Virus record (IMG/VR): IMGVR_UViG_3300023274_000006
Span: 1-39,363 of that record
DNA from: a virus
Reading direction: 5' to 3' (one strand)
DNA: 39,363 nt
Shown: positions 7,081 through 34,152 of the stretch, piece by piece
How positions within the stretch are numbered: the stretch's first letter is position 1
How the letters are laid out: each line of letters opens with the position of its first letter
Position numbers and translations under genes: made by a program
Notes under the pieces: generated by a model
Seen by the model: the letters and a program-made list of their open reading frames with translations, nothing else
Told to the model about the DNA's origin: nothing
Databases searched by the model: none

Positions 7081-8651
7081 GGTTGCTCGGTGAGGTGATC
7101 CGCGACTCGGTCGCCGGACTGCTGAACCGCACCCCCGTGCCCCTGTCGCATCGGGTCGAAACGCCGTATTTCGGCGGCGGCCTGGGCGCCGGATCGCAGG
7201 ACCGCCTGGGACAGATGACGGCGTACGGCGCCGTCGGCACGCTGTTCCAGGTCGTGCACGCGCTGTCCGAGGACACGTCGCGCGTCGACTGGCACATGCA
7301 CCGGATCCGCCAGCGCAACCCCTCGAGGGACGCCGCCACCTGTCCGCTGTGCGACAAGGCCGGTGTCGATCTCCTGGAGAAGCATCCGGCGCTCGATCGG
7401 TGGAACGAGCCGAACGAGCACACGACCGGGCAGGAGTTCGTAGAGGCTGTTCAGCAGCACGTCGATCTCACCGGCGAGGGCTACTGGGTCATGGACCTGG
7501 TGAGCGCCGGGGCGCTGTCCGGCGTGCTCGACATGTACCCGGTGCGCCCCGATCGGATGGCGCCTGTCGCGAGCGCGACGGACTACCTGACCGGGTGGCT
7601 GTACCGCTCGCCGGACGGCGAGGTGATCCCGCTGTTCAAGGAACAGGTGATCCCGCTCAAGTCGCCGAACCCGCTTGATCCGTACCGGGGGCAGGGGCCG
7701 GTCGGCTCGATCATGCGGGACATCCGGTCGGCGGCCGCGTCGGGCGACTGGACGGAGATGTTCTTCCGCAACTCCGCCATGCCGGGCGGCGTGCTCGAGG
7801 TGCCGACCGCGCTCGGTCAGACGGAGTTCGATCGGCTGGCGGATCAGTGGAAGCGCGATCACCAGGGGATGAGCAACGCGCACCGGGTGGCGATCCTGGA
7901 GAACGGGATCACGTGGTCGGACCGGTCGTATTCCCCGAAGGACATGATCCTCACGGAGATCCGCAAGTACAGCGCCGATCAGATCCGTCAGGCGTACGGT
8001 TTCCCGGAGTTCGCGGCCGGCATCCTGGAGAACGCCAACCGGGCGAGCTCGGACGCGGCGTCGCGCTGGTACACGTCGCGCATGATCGTGCCGCGCCTCG
8101 ACAAGATCCGCGATGCGCTCAACTACCGCTACCTGAAGCGCTGGGGCGCTACCGGCACGAACGTGGAATTCGCCTACTCCGACCCGACCCCGCCGGACGT
8201 GGAGAGCGAGAACGCGACGCGCACCAGTAAGACGGAGGCGTATTCCGTACTGCGCCTGGCCGGCGTCAACCCGGAGGACGCGGCAATGGTCGTCGGGCTA
8301 CCTCCCATGAGGGAGGTCTCTGACCCGATGGCGGCCGGCGCGAATCGCCGTACGGGATGGGACCAGGATCCGGATGATCCGTCGGGACGCCCGCGCCGCC
8401 GTCGCAGCGGCGACGATGACGACGACAGCGGGTGGGACGACCGGTTCGACAATGCCATGAAGTGGGTGGCCGTCGAGCACATTGACGAGAACACCTGCCA
8501 GGCCTGCAAGGACAACGACGGCAAAACGTACCGCAACCGGCAGGACGCGTATGCCGACTACCCGGAGGGTGGCGGCTACGCGAAGTGCGAGGGGCGCGGC
8601 AACTGCCGGGGCCGGGTCGTCAAGCGCGGACGGAAGGGCGAGGGATCATGA
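7077..8651 (+). CDS. Portal protein
   Basis: A 524-residue HK97-type portal from GTG 7077. It forms the dodecameric ring at one prohead vertex through which DNA is pumped. The central part contains typical segments (GEGYWVMDLV, VIPLKSPNPLDPYRGQGP, DQWKRDHQGMSNAHRVAILENG). The C-terminus carries a charged linker, then a Cys-containing module (CQACKDNDGKTY to KCEGRGNCRGRVV, about 475-515) that resembles the tail of SPP1 gp7/MuF-type minor capsid proteins and may bind metal. The protease start overlaps its stop. Confidence 0.92.
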   Translation: MRLLGEVIRDSVAGLLNRTPVPLSHRVETPYFGGGLGAGSQDRLGQMTAYGAVGTLFQVVHALSEDTSRVDWHMHRIRQRNPSRDAATCPLCDKAGVDLLEKHPALDRWNEPNEHTTGQEFVEAVQQHVDLTGEGYWVMDLVSAGALSGVLDMYPVRPDRMAPVASATDYLTGWLYRSPDGEVIPLFKEQVIPLKSPNPLDPYRGQGPVGSIMRDIRSAAASGDWTEMFFRNSAMPGGVLEVPTALGQTEFDRLADQWKRDHQGMSNAHRVAILENGITWSDRSYSPKDMILTEIRKYSADQIRQAYGFPEFAAGILENANRASSDAASRWYTSRMIVPRLDKIRDALNYRYLKRWGATGTNVEFAYSDPTPPDVESENATRTSKTEAYSVLRLAGVNPEDAAMVVGLPPMREVSDPMAAGANRRTGWDQDPDDPSGRPRRRRSGDDDDDSGWDDRFDNAMKWVAVEHIDENTCQACKDNDGKTYRNRQDAYADYPEGGGYAKCEGRGNCRGRVVKRGRKGEGS

Positions 8652-10934: not shown

Positions 10935-10987
10935 ACCGGCAGGAGTAGAGCGGGTCCTTTAATGGGCAGTAGATCGCTCCTGCCGGT
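10935..10987 (+). terminator. Hairpin downstream of capsid genes
   Basis: ACCGGCAGGAG (10935-10945) pairs with CTCCTGCCGGT (10977-10987) around a 31-nt loop, in the only sizeable gap of this part of the late operon. No T-run follows. It may reduce or process readthrough to set capsid mRNA excess. Confidence 0.45.
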
Positions 10988-11047
10988 GCACGATCCCTGC
11001 GCGCGAGCCCACTCAGGGCCAGCAAGGGCGACAGAAAGGAGCCCGCT

Positions 11048-29420: not shown

Positions 29421-29497
29421 GCGCCCGGTGGGAATCGAACCCACTTGATCACCCACCTGCCGATGGGTGCCCCTTCCCGGTGTCGGGGTTCGGGCGC
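29421..29497 (-). tRNA. tRNA-like gene with 8-nt anticodon loop
   Basis: A perfect 7-bp acceptor (GCGCCCG/CGGGCGC), D-arm CCCC-loop-GGGG with GGG in the loop, and T-arm GTGGG-TTCGATT-CCCAC. The anticodon stem is 5 bp (ACCCA/TGGGT) but its loop is 8 nt (TCGGCAGG) without the near-universal U33, and position 8 is A. Decoding identity cannot be assigned. Confidence 0.6.
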
Positions 29498-29535: not shown

Positions 29536-29994
29536 TCAGATCTTGCCGGCGTCCTCCAGCCAGGCCTCGCCCGCATCGTTGATCTTGAACACCTGAACCA
29601 TGTCGGCGGAGCAGTCGTCACCGGGCGGGCAGGCGAAACCGTGCGTCTCGCAGTCCGTCTGCACGTCGCCCATCCTCTCCTCCACCAGCTCGCGCGCCGT
29701 CTCGGAGTCGAAGATGCCGCCCAGCTCGACACCGAAGCGCGGCGTCATGAGGTACGCCTCCGTCAGCAGCTCCGCCGCCGCGTCCGTGATCTGTGCGAGC
29801 GGGGCGCTGCCGACGGGGAACTGCGCGAGCCTCTCGCAGTCCTTCACGCCGGTGACGATCGGCGGCGTGTGGACCTTGTTGCCGCAGGTGTGCGAGAGTC
29901 CGCCGCAGTAGCAGGGCTCCGGCTTACCGGTCGGTGCGATCATGCCGTACTGCGCCCACACCATGTCCCGGTCGCTGCGCATCTGCGTGCCCAT
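29536..29994 (-). CDS. Cys-rich hypothetical protein
   Basis: A 152-residue protein from ATG 29994 with GGGAG 7-11 nt upstream. Two cysteine clusters, CYCGGLSHTCG near the N-terminus (residues 28-38) and CETHGFACPPGDDC near 115-128, suggest metal binding or disulfides. The centre is helical (ITDAAAELLTEAYLM). First gene behind the promoter at 30033-30062. No family is recognised. Confidence 0.66.
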   Translation of the reverse strand: MGTQMRSDRDMVWAQYGMIAPTGKPEPCYCGGLSHTCGNKVHTPPIVTGVKDCERLAQFPVGSAPLAQITDAAAELLTEAYLMTPRFGVELGGIFDSETARELVEERMGDVQTDCETHGFACPPGDDCSADMVQVFKINDAGEAWLEDAGKI

Positions 29995-30032: not shown

Positions 30033-30062
30033 AGCCTAACAGGAACCTACTAGGTCAGTCAA
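30033..30062 (-). promoter_or_regulatory. Right-arm promoter for the 29994 gene
   Basis: TTGACT (30057-30062), 18-nt spacer GACCTAGTAGGTTCCTGT, TAGGCT (30033-30038). The -35 overlaps the stop of the upstream gene. Confidence 0.82.
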
Positions 30063-30249: not shown

Positions 30250-30884
30250 CAGACCAGCCCGCACCGGGGGCACATCTCGACACCGAGGATGATGCCCGGA
30301 TGCCGGCACGGGCGGCGGATCTCCTGCGTCACCTCGCCCGGCACGCGCGGCATGACCTGCGTGTCCGCATCACGCGCGTCGCGGGGAGGCACGTAGCCGC
30401 GCGGCCCGCCCGGCGCCTCGCCCCTGCCGGTGATCAGCGTGTCGACCGCGTTCTGCGCGACGCGCTCGGAGACCTCCCCGACGGACGGCATGACCTGCGT
30501 TTCCATCTGCCGGAACGCCGCATCCGCCAGGTCGGCCGACGCGTCACCGTCGTAGCGCAGCTCGCCCTTCATCTCGTACCGGGTGTTGGCGTTCACCGTG
30601 ACCGGCGCCTCGCTCGCCCATGCCGCCAGCTCGCGCACCCCGTGCATCCGGGCGGCCTCCACTACGGCGGACGCGACGGCCATCAGTGCCCGGGACAAAT
30701 CCTCCATGCGGTCGACCCCGCCGGTGTACAGCCGCAACGCCCGGTCGATCTCCGGGTCGGCCGGCTCGTACGTCGCCCGGATCACCAGCGCGGCAAGCAT
30801 GTACCCGTCCGCCAGGTCGCGCCCGGTGCGCGGGTACCCGGCGACGGCCGCCGTCACCGCCGCGTCGTTCAGCTCTTCGTTCAT
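30249..30884 (-). CDS. Hypothetical 211-residue protein with terminal zinc knuckle
   Basis: From ATG 30884, overlapping the upstream stop. A long helical body (DLADGYMLAALVIRATYEPADPEIDRALRLYTGG, MEDLSRALMAVASAVVEAARM) ends in a disordered stretch and a Cys/His tail (RPCRHPGIILGVEMCPRCGLV) that looks like a zinc knuckle. Function unknown. Confidence 0.65.
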   Translation of the reverse strand: MNEELNDAAVTAAVAGYPRTGRDLADGYMLAALVIRATYEPADPEIDRALRLYTGGVDRMEDLSRALMAVASAVVEAARMHGVRELAAWASEAPVTVNANTRYEMKGELRYDGDASADLADAAFRQMETQVMPSVGEVSERVAQNAVDTLITGRGEAPGGPRGYVPPRDARDADTQVMPRVPGEVTQEIRRPCRHPGIILGVEMCPRCGLV

Positions 30885-31087
30885 GGCTCGATCAGCCCCT
30901 TCCGGTGCTGCGTCAGAATGTCCAGGAGATCACCGACGGAGAGCCGGCGCGAGTCGCTTCGGATCTTGTCGCCTCCGCAGGTGCAACCGTCCAGTTGACA
31001 CCACAGCTCTCCGTCGTCGTTCAGGTAGAGCGGTTGGTCGAGGTCGACCGTTACCGCCCTCCTGCCGTCGCTGAACATCAGCTCCAT
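30881..31087 (-). CDS. Small Cys-containing early protein
   Basis: Sixty-eight residues from ATG 31087 with GAGG 9 nt upstream; a longer frame runs into a strong hairpin and is not used. Beta strands (RAVTVDLDQPLYLNDDGELWCQLDGCTCGG) include C-x4-C-x-C. No family is recognised and no shared-type promoter was found directly upstream. Confidence 0.62.
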   Translation of the reverse strand: MELMFSDGRRAVTVDLDQPLYLNDDGELWCQLDGCTCGGDKIRSDSRRLSVGDLLDILTQHRKGLIEP

Positions 31088-31138
31088 GATTACGGCCTCG
31101 CCCCCCTGGTCGCGAACGTGATCAGTCGGTGGATACGA

Positions 31139-31174
31139 GGGAGGGGGCGACGCTTCCACTCGTCGCCCCCTCCC
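31139..31174 (-). terminator. 14-bp terminator after the 31275-31898 gene
   Basis: GGGAGGGGGCGACG (31139-31152) with its exact complement (31161-31174) and an 8-nt loop. The preceding 31175-31274 carries nothing recognised. Confidence 0.82.
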
Positions 31175-31274
31175 GGTGATCGGCGCCACAGGGGCTCGGT
31201 CCAGCGCGCCGATCGGTCGGGCCTCCCTCGCGCCGGTTCGTGGTAGCGCGTTGTCGGTCAGCCCTGTGAAGCTG

Positions 31275-31898
31275 TCAGCGCAGGAACTCCGGGTGCGCCG
31301 CCAGGAACTCCCGCGCCTTCACCGCGTCGTCCGGCGTGTGGTCGGCCAGGATCAGCGCGACGTTGGGCTTCTCGCCCCGGTGCTTGCCGTTCTTGAACGC
31401 TTCGTATGCCTCCGGCAGGTCGTCCACGTCGGTAGCGAACCCCTGACCGGGGTACTTCTCGGCGTTCTTCTTCTCGATCTTGCTGGGCACCTCGATGAAG
31501 CGACCCAGGATGCACCGGGTGTTGTCCTTCTTCGCGCGCCTCACCGCGCCGACGATCGCGGTGTTGTAGTAGTACATCTGCTCACCGGTGCGCCCGGCGT
31601 GCTCCCCGTCCAGCGCGGCCGTGTCGGCGGAGAGCCGGTCCTGCTTACCGCCGCCGTACTCAGCGGGCTTGTCCACCTCTTCGATCTTGGCGTTGTCGAC
31701 GCGGATCAGCACCAGCGCGCCCGGCGTGCCGGCCATGCCGTTCGGCACCAGGTCCGACTTGCTCAGGAAGTTGCTGTCCGGCTTCGGCGCGTTCCCGAAC
31801 GGGTCACCGGCCGGCGCGCTGCCGTCCGCCTGCCCGAACGGGTCGGCCACCGTGCTGGTCTTGCTGCTCTCGTTCGTCGCGAACGGGTCGGTCGTCAT
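31275..31898 (-). CDS. Putative early DNA-metabolism protein with DPF repeats
   Basis: A 207-residue protein from ATG 31898 with GAGGA 8 nt upstream. The N-terminus repeats DPF(A/G) three times (DPFATNESS, ADPFGQADG, GDPFGNAP), then a beta-rich domain (GALVLIRVDNAKIEEVD, RCILGRFIEVPSKIEKKN) and a C-terminal helix. In actinophages genes of this look accompany RecB-type exonucleases and helicases, so a single-strand binding or annealing role is plausible, but no diagnostic motif was identified. Confidence 0.65.
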   Translation of the reverse strand: MTTDPFATNESSKTSTVADPFGQADGSAPAGDPFGNAPKPDSNFLSKSDLVPNGMAGTPGALVLIRVDNAKIEEVDKPAEYGGGKQDRLSADTAALDGEHAGRTGEQMYYYNTAIVGAVRRAKKDNTRCILGRFIEVPSKIEKKNAEKYPGQGFATDVDDLPEAYEAFKNGKHRGEKPNVALILADHTPDDAVKAREFLAAHPEFLR

Positions 31899-31936
31899 GT
31901 TGCGTTCCTCGTTTCGTTGTGCTGTCGATTCGTTGT

Positions 31937-32005
31937 GATGACGGCGCGCCCGACGCTGGTTGCCCCCAGCGTCCCCGTTTGCGGCCCACAGGGCGCGCCG
32001 TCATC
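31937..32005 (-). ncRNA. Highly structured leader element between tRNA and 31898 gene
   Basis: Perfect 15-bp outer arms (GATGACGGCGCGCCC, 31937-31951, with 31991-32005) enclose an inner 8-bp hairpin (31952-31959 with 31966-31973, loop TTGCCC) and a 17-nt unpaired strand. It starts 2 nt after the tRNA discriminator base and ends 39 nt before ATG 31898. It could be a terminator, a processing stem or a regulatory leader; no known riboswitch class was recognised. Confidence 0.6.
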
Positions 32006-32007
32006 GC

Positions 32008-32085
32008 TGCCACCCCAGGACTCGAACCTGGGACCTCCCCCTCCGTGCGCACGGCGGGCGCTCTGTCCAACTGAGCTAGGTGGCA
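32008..32085 (-). tRNA. tRNA with canonical acceptor, D and T arms but abnormal anticodon arm
   Basis: Acceptor TGCCACC/GGTGGCA; U8 A9; D-arm GCTC-AGTTGGACA-GAGC with conserved GG; variable AGGTC; T-arm CCAGG-TTCGAGT-CCTGG; discriminator G at 32007. The anticodon arm (32037-32058) is 22 nt where 17 are expected, and folds best as stems CCC/GGG and CCGT/ACGG with a GA mismatch and a GCGC tetraloop. A forced 8-nt loop (GTGCGCAC) would give U33 and GCG. Amino acid identity is left open. No CCA is encoded. Confidence 0.7.
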
Positions 32086-32187
32086 AGGTGGATCCGCGAC
32101 TCACGCTCCCGGGGCGATCAACCCCTAGTCCCGCTTCGTCCGACCCTCTCCCGACGCCTCATGGGTGTGTCGTCGTGAGTGAAGCGC

Positions 32188-32277
32188 GATCACCCGGGGA
32201 GTCGAACCCCGGTCCGGGGACCCGTCCGCACCAAGCAAGTGCGGGTCAGGGTCTCGGTGCTCCGTACACCAGTGATC
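32188..32277 (-). tRNA. tRNA-like gene with doubled anticodon stem
   Basis: Acceptor GATCACT/GGTGATC, D-arm GGTG-TACGGAG-CACC and T-arm CGGGG-TTCGACT-CCCCG. Where the anticodon arm should be there are 34 nt: GACCC/GGGTC, an internal loop, then CCGCAC/GTGCGG closing a 7-nt loop TTGCTTG. That loop has U33 and would present GCT (serine), but the arm is twice the normal length and no serine-type variable arm is formed. Confidence 0.55.
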
Positions 32278-32317
32278 TACCAGGACTCTCCGGGCGCTTA
32301 TCTCCGGTTCGTCCAGC

Positions 32318-32398
32318 GAGAGGTGAGGGAATCGAACCCTCTCCGCACGGTACCCAGTACGGTTTTTCCAAGGTCCGATGCGCATTGGACCCCCTCCC
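32318..32398 (-). tRNA. tRNA-like element
   Basis: T-arm GAGGG-TTCGATT-CCCTC is perfect and the 3' acceptor strand ACCTCTC pairs with GGGAGGG over 6 positions (one wobble, one mismatch). The D-arm (GGTCC/GGACC) has a 10-nt loop lacking GG, and the anticodon-side hairpin CCGTAC/GTGCGG has an 8-nt loop. Decoding function is doubtful. Confidence 0.42.
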
Positions 32399-32462
32399 GT
32401 TCGCAGTTCATCCGACCGTCGTCGGCGTCACGCCTCATCGGTCGCAACGACTTCTGCGAAGT

Positions 32463-32578
32463 GGCGAGCCGGGGAGTCGAACCCCGGTGATCCATCGCTG
32501 GCGTCTTCTGCCACCTGGTGCCTGGCTGCGCACTCGATCTGATCGTCCGAGTCGGGTAATGTACCCCGACCTCTCGCC
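32463..32578 (-). tRNA. Long tRNA-like element (about 116 nt)
   Basis: T-arm CGGGG-TTCGACT-CCCCG next to acceptor strand CTCGCC, which pairs perfectly with GGCGAG at the 5' end. Between them are extra hairpins (TCGGG/CCCGA, CTCG/CGAG, TGGC/GCCA) in place of ordinary D and anticodon arms. It is too long for a normal tRNA; the outer pairing is only 6 bp, so the 5' boundary is tentative. Confidence 0.38.
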
Positions 32579-32585
32579 GTGCTGC

Positions 32586-32759
32586 TTACCGCTTCGGTTC
32601 CTCCCCGTACGTCGGACCGGGGTTGCGGCGACCGCGCGGGGCGAAACCCGACGCGGGAGTCCCGGTCTTCGGACCGTCCGGCTGAACCGTTGACCCGTGG
32701 GTCCGCGAGTCGTGCCGGTGTTCAGGCCCGTCGGCGGCCGTGTCGCTTGCCCTCGTCAC
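32586..32759 (-). CDS. Disordered small basic protein heading the tRNA-like cluster
   Basis: Fifty-seven residues from GTG 32759 with AGGAGA 5-10 nt upstream; an in-frame ATG at 32804 lies inside the promoter. Pro, Gly, Arg and His dominate (PEHRHDSRTHGSTVQPDGPK). First frame downstream of the promoter 32795-32823; the tRNA-like genes follow on the same transcript. No family is recognised. Confidence 0.5.
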   Translation of the reverse strand: MTRASDTAADGPEHRHDSRTHGSTVQPDGPKTGTPASGFAPRGRRNPGPTYGEEPKR

Positions 32760-32794
32760 TGTCTCTCCTGTCGCTCTCCGTCTTGCTCGGCACA

Positions 32795-32823
32795 AGCCTA
32801 ACATGATCCTAGTAGCTAGGCAA
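32795..32823 (-). promoter_or_regulatory. Right-arm promoter for tRNA-like cluster and 31898 gene
   Basis: TTGCCT (32818-32823), spacer AGCTACTAGGATCATGT, TAGGCT (32795-32800). The -35 overlaps the end of the exonuclease gene. Confidence 0.8.
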
Positions 32824-33754
32824 GCGGTTCCATCGGACGAACGTAGTCCTTCTTGGTACGCAGCACCCGCAGCGCGTGCGCTACCTCAGCGACCTGCCGA
32901 CCGAGCTTCAGGTTCGCCCAGTACGTCTGGCACGTCGCGCTACCGGCCGGCGCGTGGATCACGATGCCGGCGTTCATGTTCCAGGGGCGCCCGGTCAGTT
33001 CGTACTTCGGCCCGTCTCCGGCACGCTCGGCCAACGCCGGAGCAATCGGCTCGGTGGTGTTCTTCTCCGGGTCGTAGAAGTGAGTGGCCAGGGAGTACAG
33101 GCCGAGCTGACAGGCCTCTTCGTACCAGGATTTGCGAGACTGCTTCGTCTTGCGGTCGCCCAGGTGCAGCTCCGCATTCTGTTGGTGGTCTTCCAGTCCT
33201 TCTGGACGCCACCACGCCCCGTCGATCCGGCCGATGAGCCGGTACTTGGGGATCAGCACGAAGCGCTCCGCGAAGCGCGCATCAGGTTCGAGCGCCTGTC
33301 GCGCCATCTCCGCCTTGTACGCCTCGACGTCGCTGACGTACTTCGTCGGCACGCGCGAGTCCTCACCCCGGTCGACACGATCCTGAAAGCCGTGCAGCGC
33401 GGTGCCGAGATTCGCACCGGCGAACGCACCCGCGCCGCGCTTCGCGTCCTCCGCGATCTGATCGAGCGAGCGCGTGTCGCCGGGGTCGGTGCCGGCGGCG
33501 CGCACCCAGAGCGCTTCGTCCATCCCGAGGCCGGTGACGATCATCCGGCCCGTCCACTTCAGCAGACCCTCGGAGTCCTTCAGCGCGCCGAGGAACGTCG
33601 TCACCGCCGTCCAGGGGACTTTTTCCCCCGTATAAGGATGTGTGATGAGCCGCCGCTTCCACTGATCGCGCTCCTCCTGCGGCCGCCCGGGAGGCTGCGA
33701 GAAGAGGTCGTCGGCGAACGGCAGTGCGTCGGCCGGGATGTCGGAGATGGTCAC
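32816..33754 (-). CDS. RecB/Cas4-type PD-(D/E)XK exonuclease
   Basis: A 312-residue protein from ATG 33754, overlapping the upstream stop. The nuclease core is visible: His121 in GTALHGFQ, Asp178 in LIGRIDGAWW, the D-x-K pair in GDRKTKQS (Asp200, Lys202) and Gln216 in CQLGLYS, which corresponds to the QhXXY-type motif. It would resect DNA ends for recombination-dependent replication together with the helicase and RusA-like resolvase. The cysteines of iron-sulfur Cas4 proteins are not evident. Confidence 0.87.
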   Translation of the reverse strand: MTISDIPADALPFADDLFSQPPGRPQEERDQWKRRLITHPYTGEKVPWTAVTTFLGALKDSEGLLKWTGRMIVTGLGMDEALWVRAAGTDPGDTRSLDQIAEDAKRGAGAFAGANLGTALHGFQDRVDRGEDSRVPTKYVSDVEAYKAEMARQALEPDARFAERFVLIPKYRLIGRIDGAWWRPEGLEDHQQNAELHLGDRKTKQSRKSWYEEACQLGLYSLATHFYDPEKNTTEPIAPALAERAGDGPKYELTGRPWNMNAGIVIHAPAGSATCQTYWANLKLGRQVAEVAHALRVLRTKKDYVRPMEPLA

Positions 33755-34152
33755 CGGTCGCGCTCCGGGTCGAATCCGTATCCGTCGATGATCGCGTCAG
33801 GATGCACGCCCATACCGATGCCGGCGCGTCGGCCGGGTGGCTGGTCGAACGGGTCGGGCTTGACGGTCTCTCGCGCGTCAGGCGTCACCAGGTCGTGCTG
33901 AGTGACGCCCTGCTCCGGCACGCCGTTCATGGCGATCCCGTCGTGCGCACCGGACTTCACCGCGATCACGTGATCGTAGAACTCCTGGTAGGTGAACTGG
34001 CAGACGTAGCCGTGTTCGTCCGCGACCGCCACGTCGGTGTCAGGACGCAGCTCCAGGAACCGTCGATTCGTGTGCTGTCGCAGCGCTGCCCCCGCGTCGA
34101 CCCGTACGTCGAACACGTGCACGCAGTCATTGCCGCCGGTGTCTCCACCCAT
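33751..34152 (-). CDS. Hypothetical early protein ahead of the exonuclease
   Basis: A 133-residue protein from ATG 34152 with GGAG 9 nt upstream; ATG 34170 lacks a ribosome site. Contains VHVFDVRVDAGAALRQHTNRRFLELRPDTDVAVADEHGYVCQFTYQEFYDHV, an alpha/beta region, and a Pro/Asp-rich C-terminus with PDPFDQPPG, echoing the DPF words of the 31275-31898 protein. Coupled to the exonuclease by a 4-bp overlap; function unknown. Confidence 0.66.
   Translation of the reverse strand: MGGDTGGNDCVHVFDVRVDAGAALRQHTNRRFLELRPDTDVAVADEHGYVCQFTYQEFYDHVIAVKSGAHDGIAMNGVPEQGVTQHDLVTPDARETVKPDPFDQPPGRRAGIGMGVHPDAIIDGYGFDPERDR

Follow-up and report, generated by a model that had tools for sequence, protein, structure and literature searches.

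In T7-type phages, the early genes are separated by RNase III processing sites, so that every gap of the operon has a structured site for cleavage. Phages also employ transfer RNAs (tRNAs) against tRNA-cutting defences (PMC11555353). Bacteriophage M3 RNA (M3) and the C4 antisense RNA (C4) are natural non-tRNA substrates of RNase P (PMC11143913), so that phage RNAs can be processed by this enzyme. Here, we analysed a virus record from IMG/VR (IMGVR_UViG_3300023274_000006), the whole 39,363 bp of which are called the window, and describe five tRNA-like elements (E1–E5) in it. As read from their predicted folds, the tRNA half that is recognised by tRNA-cutting enzymes is kept and the codon-reading half is lost in E1–E5. 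We consider them to be non-decoding tRNA-like elements in early transcripts that most likely serve as processing sites for host RNase P. Since similar elements occur in related phages, including forms of 45 bases placed once per gap between genes, they probably mark points of cleavage in phage messages and are probably neither working nor decaying tRNAs.

Anatomy and statistical support of the five elements

Scanning the whole window for T stems with a TTCRANY loop revealed five T arms, all on the minus strand, versus a mean of 0.18 and a maximum of two in 100 Markov (dinucleotide-based) shuffles of the window. Each T arm is part of an element with an acceptor/T stack of 11–12 bp and with R73-C74 at its 3′ end (background C frequency 0.34; Table 1). 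Over E1–E5, 58 of the 60 acceptor and T-stem pairs are intact, and an anticodon arm of 5 bp and 7 nt is found in none of the five. E1, E2 and E5 combine the full 7-bp acceptor with a 5-bp T stem and a TTCRANY loop, and their acceptor matches, taken singly, are significant at tRNA-like distance (P ~0.007–0.02).

The interior differs between the elements: E1 and E5 are cloverleaves with 8-nt anticodon loops, E2 has a lengthened arm, and E3 and E4 have no D arm and no recognisable cloverleaf. In E1, a canonical D arm (GCTC-AGTTGGACA-GAGC) is accompanied by the anticodon arm CCCGCC-GTGCGCAC-GGAGGG, a 6-bp stem with a G.A mismatch and an 8-nt loop, which keeps U33 and is able to close further to a GCGC tetraloop. 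The D stem of E5 (CCCC/GGGG) is followed by an anticodon stem ACCCA/TGGGT with the 8-nt loop TCGGCAGG, which has no U33. E2 has the D arm GGTG-TACGGAG-CACC and an anticodon domain of ~35 nt (GACCC...GGGTC) with the tip hairpin CCGCAC-TTGCTTG-GTGCGG. The D/anticodon domain of E3 is replaced by the hairpins GGTCC-AATGCGCATC-GGACC and CCGTAC-TGGGTACC-GTGCGG, with an 8-nt loop lacking U33, and that of E4 is enlarged to ~75 nt.

An earlier note on this DNA had reported four elements at 32008–32578 (E1–E4) with perfect T stems, matching acceptors and no normal anticodon arm, and had overlooked E5. The T stems of all four are indeed Watson-Crick paired at 5/5 positions, the acceptors match to the extent given in Table 1, and the lack of a normal 5-bp/7-nt anticodon arm extends to E5. 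The 22-nt arm with a tetraloop that had been ascribed to E1 agrees with the arm described here; the arm of E2 had been given as 34 nt.

ARAGORN and covariance scores had been proposed there as a check. ARAGORN labelled E1 as tRNA-??? and E2 as Val and no other element of the five, while the Rfam tRNA family RF00005 had no match at E ≤ 1 in 30500–34000 (E5 lies outside this stretch). The Rfam family RF01684 (mascRNA/menRNA) matched E2 with 21.7 bits, below its cut-off of 42.5. A further ARAGORN call, a transfer-messenger RNA (tmRNA) at 7440–7769, lies inside the portal gene and was treated as a false positive.

Table 1. Coordinates of the tRNA-like elements and neighbouring features in the window (aa, amino acids; ORF, open reading frame)
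Feature	Position	Strand	Description
E1	32008..32085	-	Acceptor TGCCACC/GGTGGCA (7/7 pairs); T arm CCAGG-TTCGAGT-CCTGG; G73-C74 at 32007-32006
E2	32188..32277	-	Acceptor GATCACT/GGTGATC (7/7, one G-U); T arm CGGGG-TTCGACT-CCCCG; G73-C74
E3	32318..32398	-	Acceptor GGGAGGG/ACCTCTC (6/7, one G-U); T arm GAGGG-TTCGATT-CCCTC; G73-C74
E4	32463..32578	-	Acceptor GGCGAG/CTCGCC (6/7, alternatively 6+6 with 6-bp T stem); T arm CCGGGG-TTCGACT-CCCCGG; A73-C74
E5	29421..29497	-	Acceptor GCGCCCG/CGGGCGC; T arm GTGGG-TTCGATT-CCCAC; A73-C74
Small ORF, 57 aa	32586..32759	-	GTG start and GGAGAG ribosome-binding site; same transcript, immediately upstream of E4
Promoter-like 21-bp motif CTACTAGGATCATGTTAGGCT	32795-32815	-	Precedes 57-aa ORF and E4-E1
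Promoter-like 21-bp motif, further copy	30033-30053	-	Precedes gene 29536-29994 and E5
Hairpin TTCGCAG...CTGCGAA	32400..32460	-	Begins directly 3′ of E4 A73-C74
Hairpin CGCTTC...GAAGCG	32132..32186	-	Begins directly 3′ of E2 G73-C74
15-bp inverted repeat GATGACGGCGCGCCC...GGGCGCGCCGTCATC	31937..32005	-	Directly 3′ of E1 G73-C74; before gene 31275-31898

Related elements in other phages

None of 50,697 phage records resembled the window at the DNA level. Since exact-peptide searches of IMG/VR with three early proteins gave no close relative, relatives (IMG/VR contigs and Streptomyces phages) were gathered through the terminase. Streptomyces phage Dagobah is collinear with the window across the structural genes (terminase 48%, portal and capsid 38% identity) and the terminase is 52% identical to that of Thermobifida phage P1312, and the host is therefore most likely an actinomycete.

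Several relatives carry elements with an intact acceptor and T arm around an altered interior. Among the contigs, these comprise a 34-nt anticodon arm with a GAAA cap (L218), 6-bp anticodon stems with 8-nt loops (L220, L224), an insertion in the D loop as well as in the anticodon arm (L223), and near-minis (L219, L229), which approach the ~45-nt family described below but have longer linkers. An unannotated cloverleaf with an anticodon domain of ~54 or ~74 nt is present in Streptomyces phages Xkcd426 and phiSAJS1, respectively. In the same gap between orthologous genes, YDN12, Geonosis and Abt2graduatex2 keep only the acceptor, the T arm and a 3′ A-C-T and differ in the inner hairpins, so that the syntenic gap contains three different interiors in five Streptomyces phages while acceptor, T arm and A-C are constant. 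The half that is kept is, according to these predicted folds, the non-decoding half. The tRNA-derived or tRNA-mimicking nature that the earlier note had assigned to the elements is thus upheld, the non-decoding arm being recurrent and kept in relatives. Ordinary anticodon arms at the same place in relatives, named there as a sign of assembly errors, are absent from the one syntenic locus that is comparable, the window itself having no close relatives; as judged from the relatives, E1–E5 appear to be neither assembly errors nor an isolated decay event.

T arms of this kind were absent from the parts that were examined of four Streptomyces phages (Verse, Nishikigoi, Dubu and Cumberbatch). Searching for E1-like tRNAs by a pattern that allowed a long gap yielded no more than the ordinary tRNA cluster of a jumbo phage. 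In YDN12-type phages, the element contains a second T-arm-like hairpin with the loop TTCAAGT/TTCAAAT (L230 5062–5330, L231 5507–5830, L232 5830–6045). In Mischief19 (L233 25190–25350), a promoter-like TTGACA-N17-TATAGT is present where relatives carry the tRNA-like element.

The most reduced elements, termed minis, form a much larger and apparently undescribed family; they comprise ~45 nt and consist of an acceptor helix, a linker with AYGGUY and a T arm only. The number found by a pattern scan of IMG/VR is a lower bound, and the following figures refer to the matches listed. Acceptor pairing, for which the pattern did not select, amounts to 0.80 in 95 non-tRNA matches versus 0.52 with shuffled partners (maximum 0.56). 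The continuous 3′ strand of T stem and acceptor spans 11–13 positions (mode 12) in 78 of 80 matches, followed mostly by A73-C74. In 34 aligned minis, 95.3% of the cells are paired versus 52.7% when shuffled and 36–52% when slid, a paired fraction inflated by choosing paired members, from contigs that are perhaps related, so that counts do not represent independent events. Compensatory changes occur at all 10 variable pairs of these minis and are spread across many unlike acceptors, and the linker positions R7 and Y13 covary (A-U 20, G-C 13, one exception). The type of linker goes together with the type of T loop (AYGGUY with TTCGAYT, GGCA..AC with TTCGAGT), which suggests that the two make a tertiary contact.

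Dagobah contains two full minis with an 11-nt linker. It also has an intergenic T-arm hairpin with perfect pairing, GGGGG-TTCGATT-CCCCC (L009 9190+), for which no clear acceptor partner is present. The second linker type, GGCA..AC with T loop TTCGAGT, was observed at L030 6743–6980, L079 8955, L089 4490, L132 1108 and L059 1211, and low-complexity GGCAAGGCATGGC-type repeats lie beside several minis in the G+C-rich contigs L029, L030, L055 and L061. Six multi-copy mini loci had no Rfam match at E ≤ 1. A covariance model of the minis also matches assemblies of Streptomyces, Nonomuraea, Nocardia, Amycolatopsis, Bacteroidota and Clostridia, probably in putative prophages.

Minis are closely tied to gene boundaries. 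Among the matches listed, they start a median of 9 nt past a same-strand stop codon (216 nt at random), and the next start codon follows a median of 67 nt beyond the mini (223 nt at random). The clearest series was found in mycobacteriophage Indlulamithi (L354; NC_048824 30001–71538, deposited annotation), in which 12 gaps of ≥80 nt follow one another between gp40 and gp57 (L354 5024–12413), every one of them with exactly one element. In these gaps, the stop codon is followed after usually 2–17 nt (135 in one gap) by the element and, after a further 31–66 nt, by the start codon; a small hairpin succeeds each element, and in most cases a AGAGGATGG-type ribosome-binding site (RBS) comes next. 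The series is mixed, comprising minis, a D-arm-only form and two elements with extra linker hairpins, and beyond it an aberrant 70-nt element adjoins a true tRNA-Gln. Two later gaps (L354 13047–13219 and 13439–13579) contain no element. The annotated start of gp53 overlaps the element at 10963–11008 and may be wrong. L110, L128 and L132 likewise have one element per intergenic gap with tight spacing to the stop codon and the next start.

Through the mixture of minis and enlarged forms in Indlulamithi, a continuous series connects the minis with the enlarged window elements. E1–E5 share the 11–13-position acceptor/T stack, the TTCRANY loop and N73-C74 with the mini family, and the mini covariance model, which was built from unrelated phages, has its best five window matches at the T arms of E1–E5. 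None of the five has the 10–12-nt linker with AYGGUY in place of the D and anticodon arms, and none has a 5-bp anticodon stem with a 7-nt loop and U33. As far as these predicted structures go, the anticodon arm sets the window elements apart from tRNAs and the linker sets them apart from minis; they are related to minis and look like enlarged members of the same wider class.

Gene context and candidate function

E1–E5 are all located within the early, minus-strand gene block. The 57-aa ORF is followed by E4, which begins 7 nt after the stop codon, and by E3, E2 and E1 in tandem with no ORF between the elements, whereas E5 stands singly between two minus-strand genes (upstream gene 29536–29994) and fits the placement of one element per gap. 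The 21-bp motif CTASTAGGNTCNTGTTAGGCT is present in nine copies between 27371 and 36950 (0 expected), every copy on the minus strand and upstream of early genes, and is likely a phage promoter or operator; a single early promoter for E1–E4, as assumed in the earlier note, is plausible. Hammerhead-like cores in the spacers were considered and rejected as no Rfam match was found.

If the elements are processing sites, each would fold into a tRNA mimic after transcription. The upper half of a tRNA is retained in E1–E5 (~12-bp acceptor/T stack, TTCRANY loop, usually an elbow-forming GG, R73-C74), while the lower, codon-reading half can grow, be exchanged for other structures or, in related elements elsewhere, be lost. 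Host RNase P would measure 12 bp from the T loop and cut at the acceptor 5′ end (position 1), and a 3′ tRNA-processing activity (RNase Z or an exonuclease) would probably trim past position 73. Polycistronic phage RNA would thereby be divided in the Indlulamithi type of arrangement; release of small tRNA-like RNAs from the tandem E4–E1 block would be an alternative outcome of the same processing. We infer that the elements are transcribed, that RNase P and perhaps RNase Z cleave them and that the phage benefits.

The acceptor/T geometry and the presence of R73-C74 fit the published RNase P ruler and model substrates (PMC4919913). Several results weigh against processing. Position 75 is not conserved as C and the 'RCC' contact of RNase P would therefore be partial, and four of the five window elements are in tandem without intervening ORF, which is not strict punctuation. 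The acceptor matches of E3 and E4 taken singly are not significant (P ~0.25), the minimum-energy fold of E1 is not a cloverleaf, and the covariance model found no full mini in the window, matching T arms alone. Mischief19 has no element at the syntenic place, and the T-loop pattern is missing in 11 of 20 related contigs, many of which are fragments.

Four elements stand in tandem behind one small gene, and three of them are directly followed by a hairpin. This arrangement resembles an array for release, and together with the conservation of the acceptor/T half alone it would also suit stable small tRNA-mimic RNAs that act as decoys or sponges and titrate a host factor binding this half (for example EF-Tu, tRNA nucleotidyltransferase, RNase P itself, an enzyme that modifies the T loop, or a toxin directed at tRNA 3′ ends). 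We regard such decoys as unlikely, since a trans-acting RNA does not need the tight one-per-gap spacing of Indlulamithi, L110, L128 and L132. Among the decoys proposed in the earlier note, those for anticodon nucleases are disfavoured by the replaced or absent loop in the wider class, whereas those for enzymes binding the acceptor/T half are covered by this possibility. It is improbable that the folds stay attached to the mRNA, at a 3′ end or in a 5′ leader, and block exonucleases without excision: the upstream stop codon at a median of 9 nt and the hairpin before the next gene would be in line with such cis-acting end protectors, but a plain stem-loop needs neither the 12-bp length nor the T loop nor R-C, and this geometry invites RNase P.

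The earlier note had also considered decaying genes and working tRNAs. Decay of former tRNA genes would explain the non-functional anticodon arms and the missing D arms of E3 and E4, and E1 and the elements of Xkcd426 and phiSAJS1 are clearly tRNA-derived. Simple decay is nevertheless a little less probable still than end protection, as the acceptor and T-stem pairs are almost all intact in elements without a single normal anticodon arm, the same half is kept in relatives despite a replaced interior, and minis show compensatory changes and several copies per genome in gaps; the evidence on constraint comes from relatives, the window elements themselves having no close ones. Least probable of all are unusual working tRNAs, either nuclease-resistant replacements or four-base decoders. 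The full cloverleaves of E1 and E5 with 8-nt anticodon loops speak for them, but an 8-nt loop with U33 is present in E1 only, the loops of E3 and E5 lacking U33. A usable anticodon loop is missing from E3, E4 and most relatives, and minis have no anticodon arm at all; even a loop altered to evade anticodon nucleases would have to be usable, and in this class of elements the loops are replaced or absent. Remnants of integration (att) sites were rejected because one genome can have several different elements. The free variation of the acceptor sequences led us to reject aminoacylation by a single synthetase as well.

Comparison with known systems

No description of such phage elements was found in Rfam 15 or the searchable open literature. 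The elements are apparently undescribed in phages, whereas tRNA-like RNase P substrates and tRNA punctuation are concepts known elsewhere, and it is a realistic possibility that the minis constitute a new class of RNA. ARAGORN and Rfam do not see the elements, which therefore lack annotation even in carefully curated genomes of mycobacteriophages and Streptomyces phages. If processing by the tRNA-maturation machinery proves true, messages would be processed gene by gene, a new layer of phage gene expression; odd or undetermined tRNAs in phage annotations would be explained, and many natural minimal RNase P substrates would become available.

With canonical tRNAs (RF00005), including those of phage tRNA clusters, the elements share the acceptor helix, the T arm with TTCRANY loop, R73-C74 and often a D arm with GG, but they have no 5-bp/7-nt anticodon arm and are mostly missed by ARAGORN and Rfam. 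In mascRNA/menRNA (RF01684), too, the cloverleaf has been reduced so far that an acceptor, a T arm and a short interior are left; this family, however, belongs to the 3′ processing of animal long non-coding RNAs, and the match of E2 stays under its threshold. The tRNA-like domain of tmRNA (RF00023), to which one Indlulamithi element is a weak match, has an acceptor and T arm without anticodon arm as well, whereas a tag-peptide reading frame and a tmRNA core are absent here. T7-type RNase III sites are long duplexes in contrast to the tRNA-like fold of the elements, and a different enzyme is expected to act.

Model RNase P substrates, M3 and C4 (PMC11143913) share the 12-bp acceptor/T-like stack, in the latter two within phage RNA; the present elements, as putative substrates, differ in having a true T loop and in occurring in many copies per genome in intergenic gaps. 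With mitochondrial tRNA punctuation, the elements of Indlulamithi, L128, L110 and L132 share the placement of one tRNA-like fold between successive genes. It is quite possible, and tentatively proposed, that phages of many hosts use this class of tRNA mimics, from 45-nt minis to tRNAs with replaced anticodon domains, as RNase P-dependent operon punctuation. By analogy, and just as tentatively, such punctuation may be the phage counterpart of the mitochondrial system, in which case an essential ribozyme of the host, that of tRNA maturation, would have been captured for mRNA processing. In contrast to mitochondrial tRNAs, the phage elements are non-decoding and reduced, belong to DNA phages and have an excision that is presumed, and in the window the punctuation is strict for E5 only.
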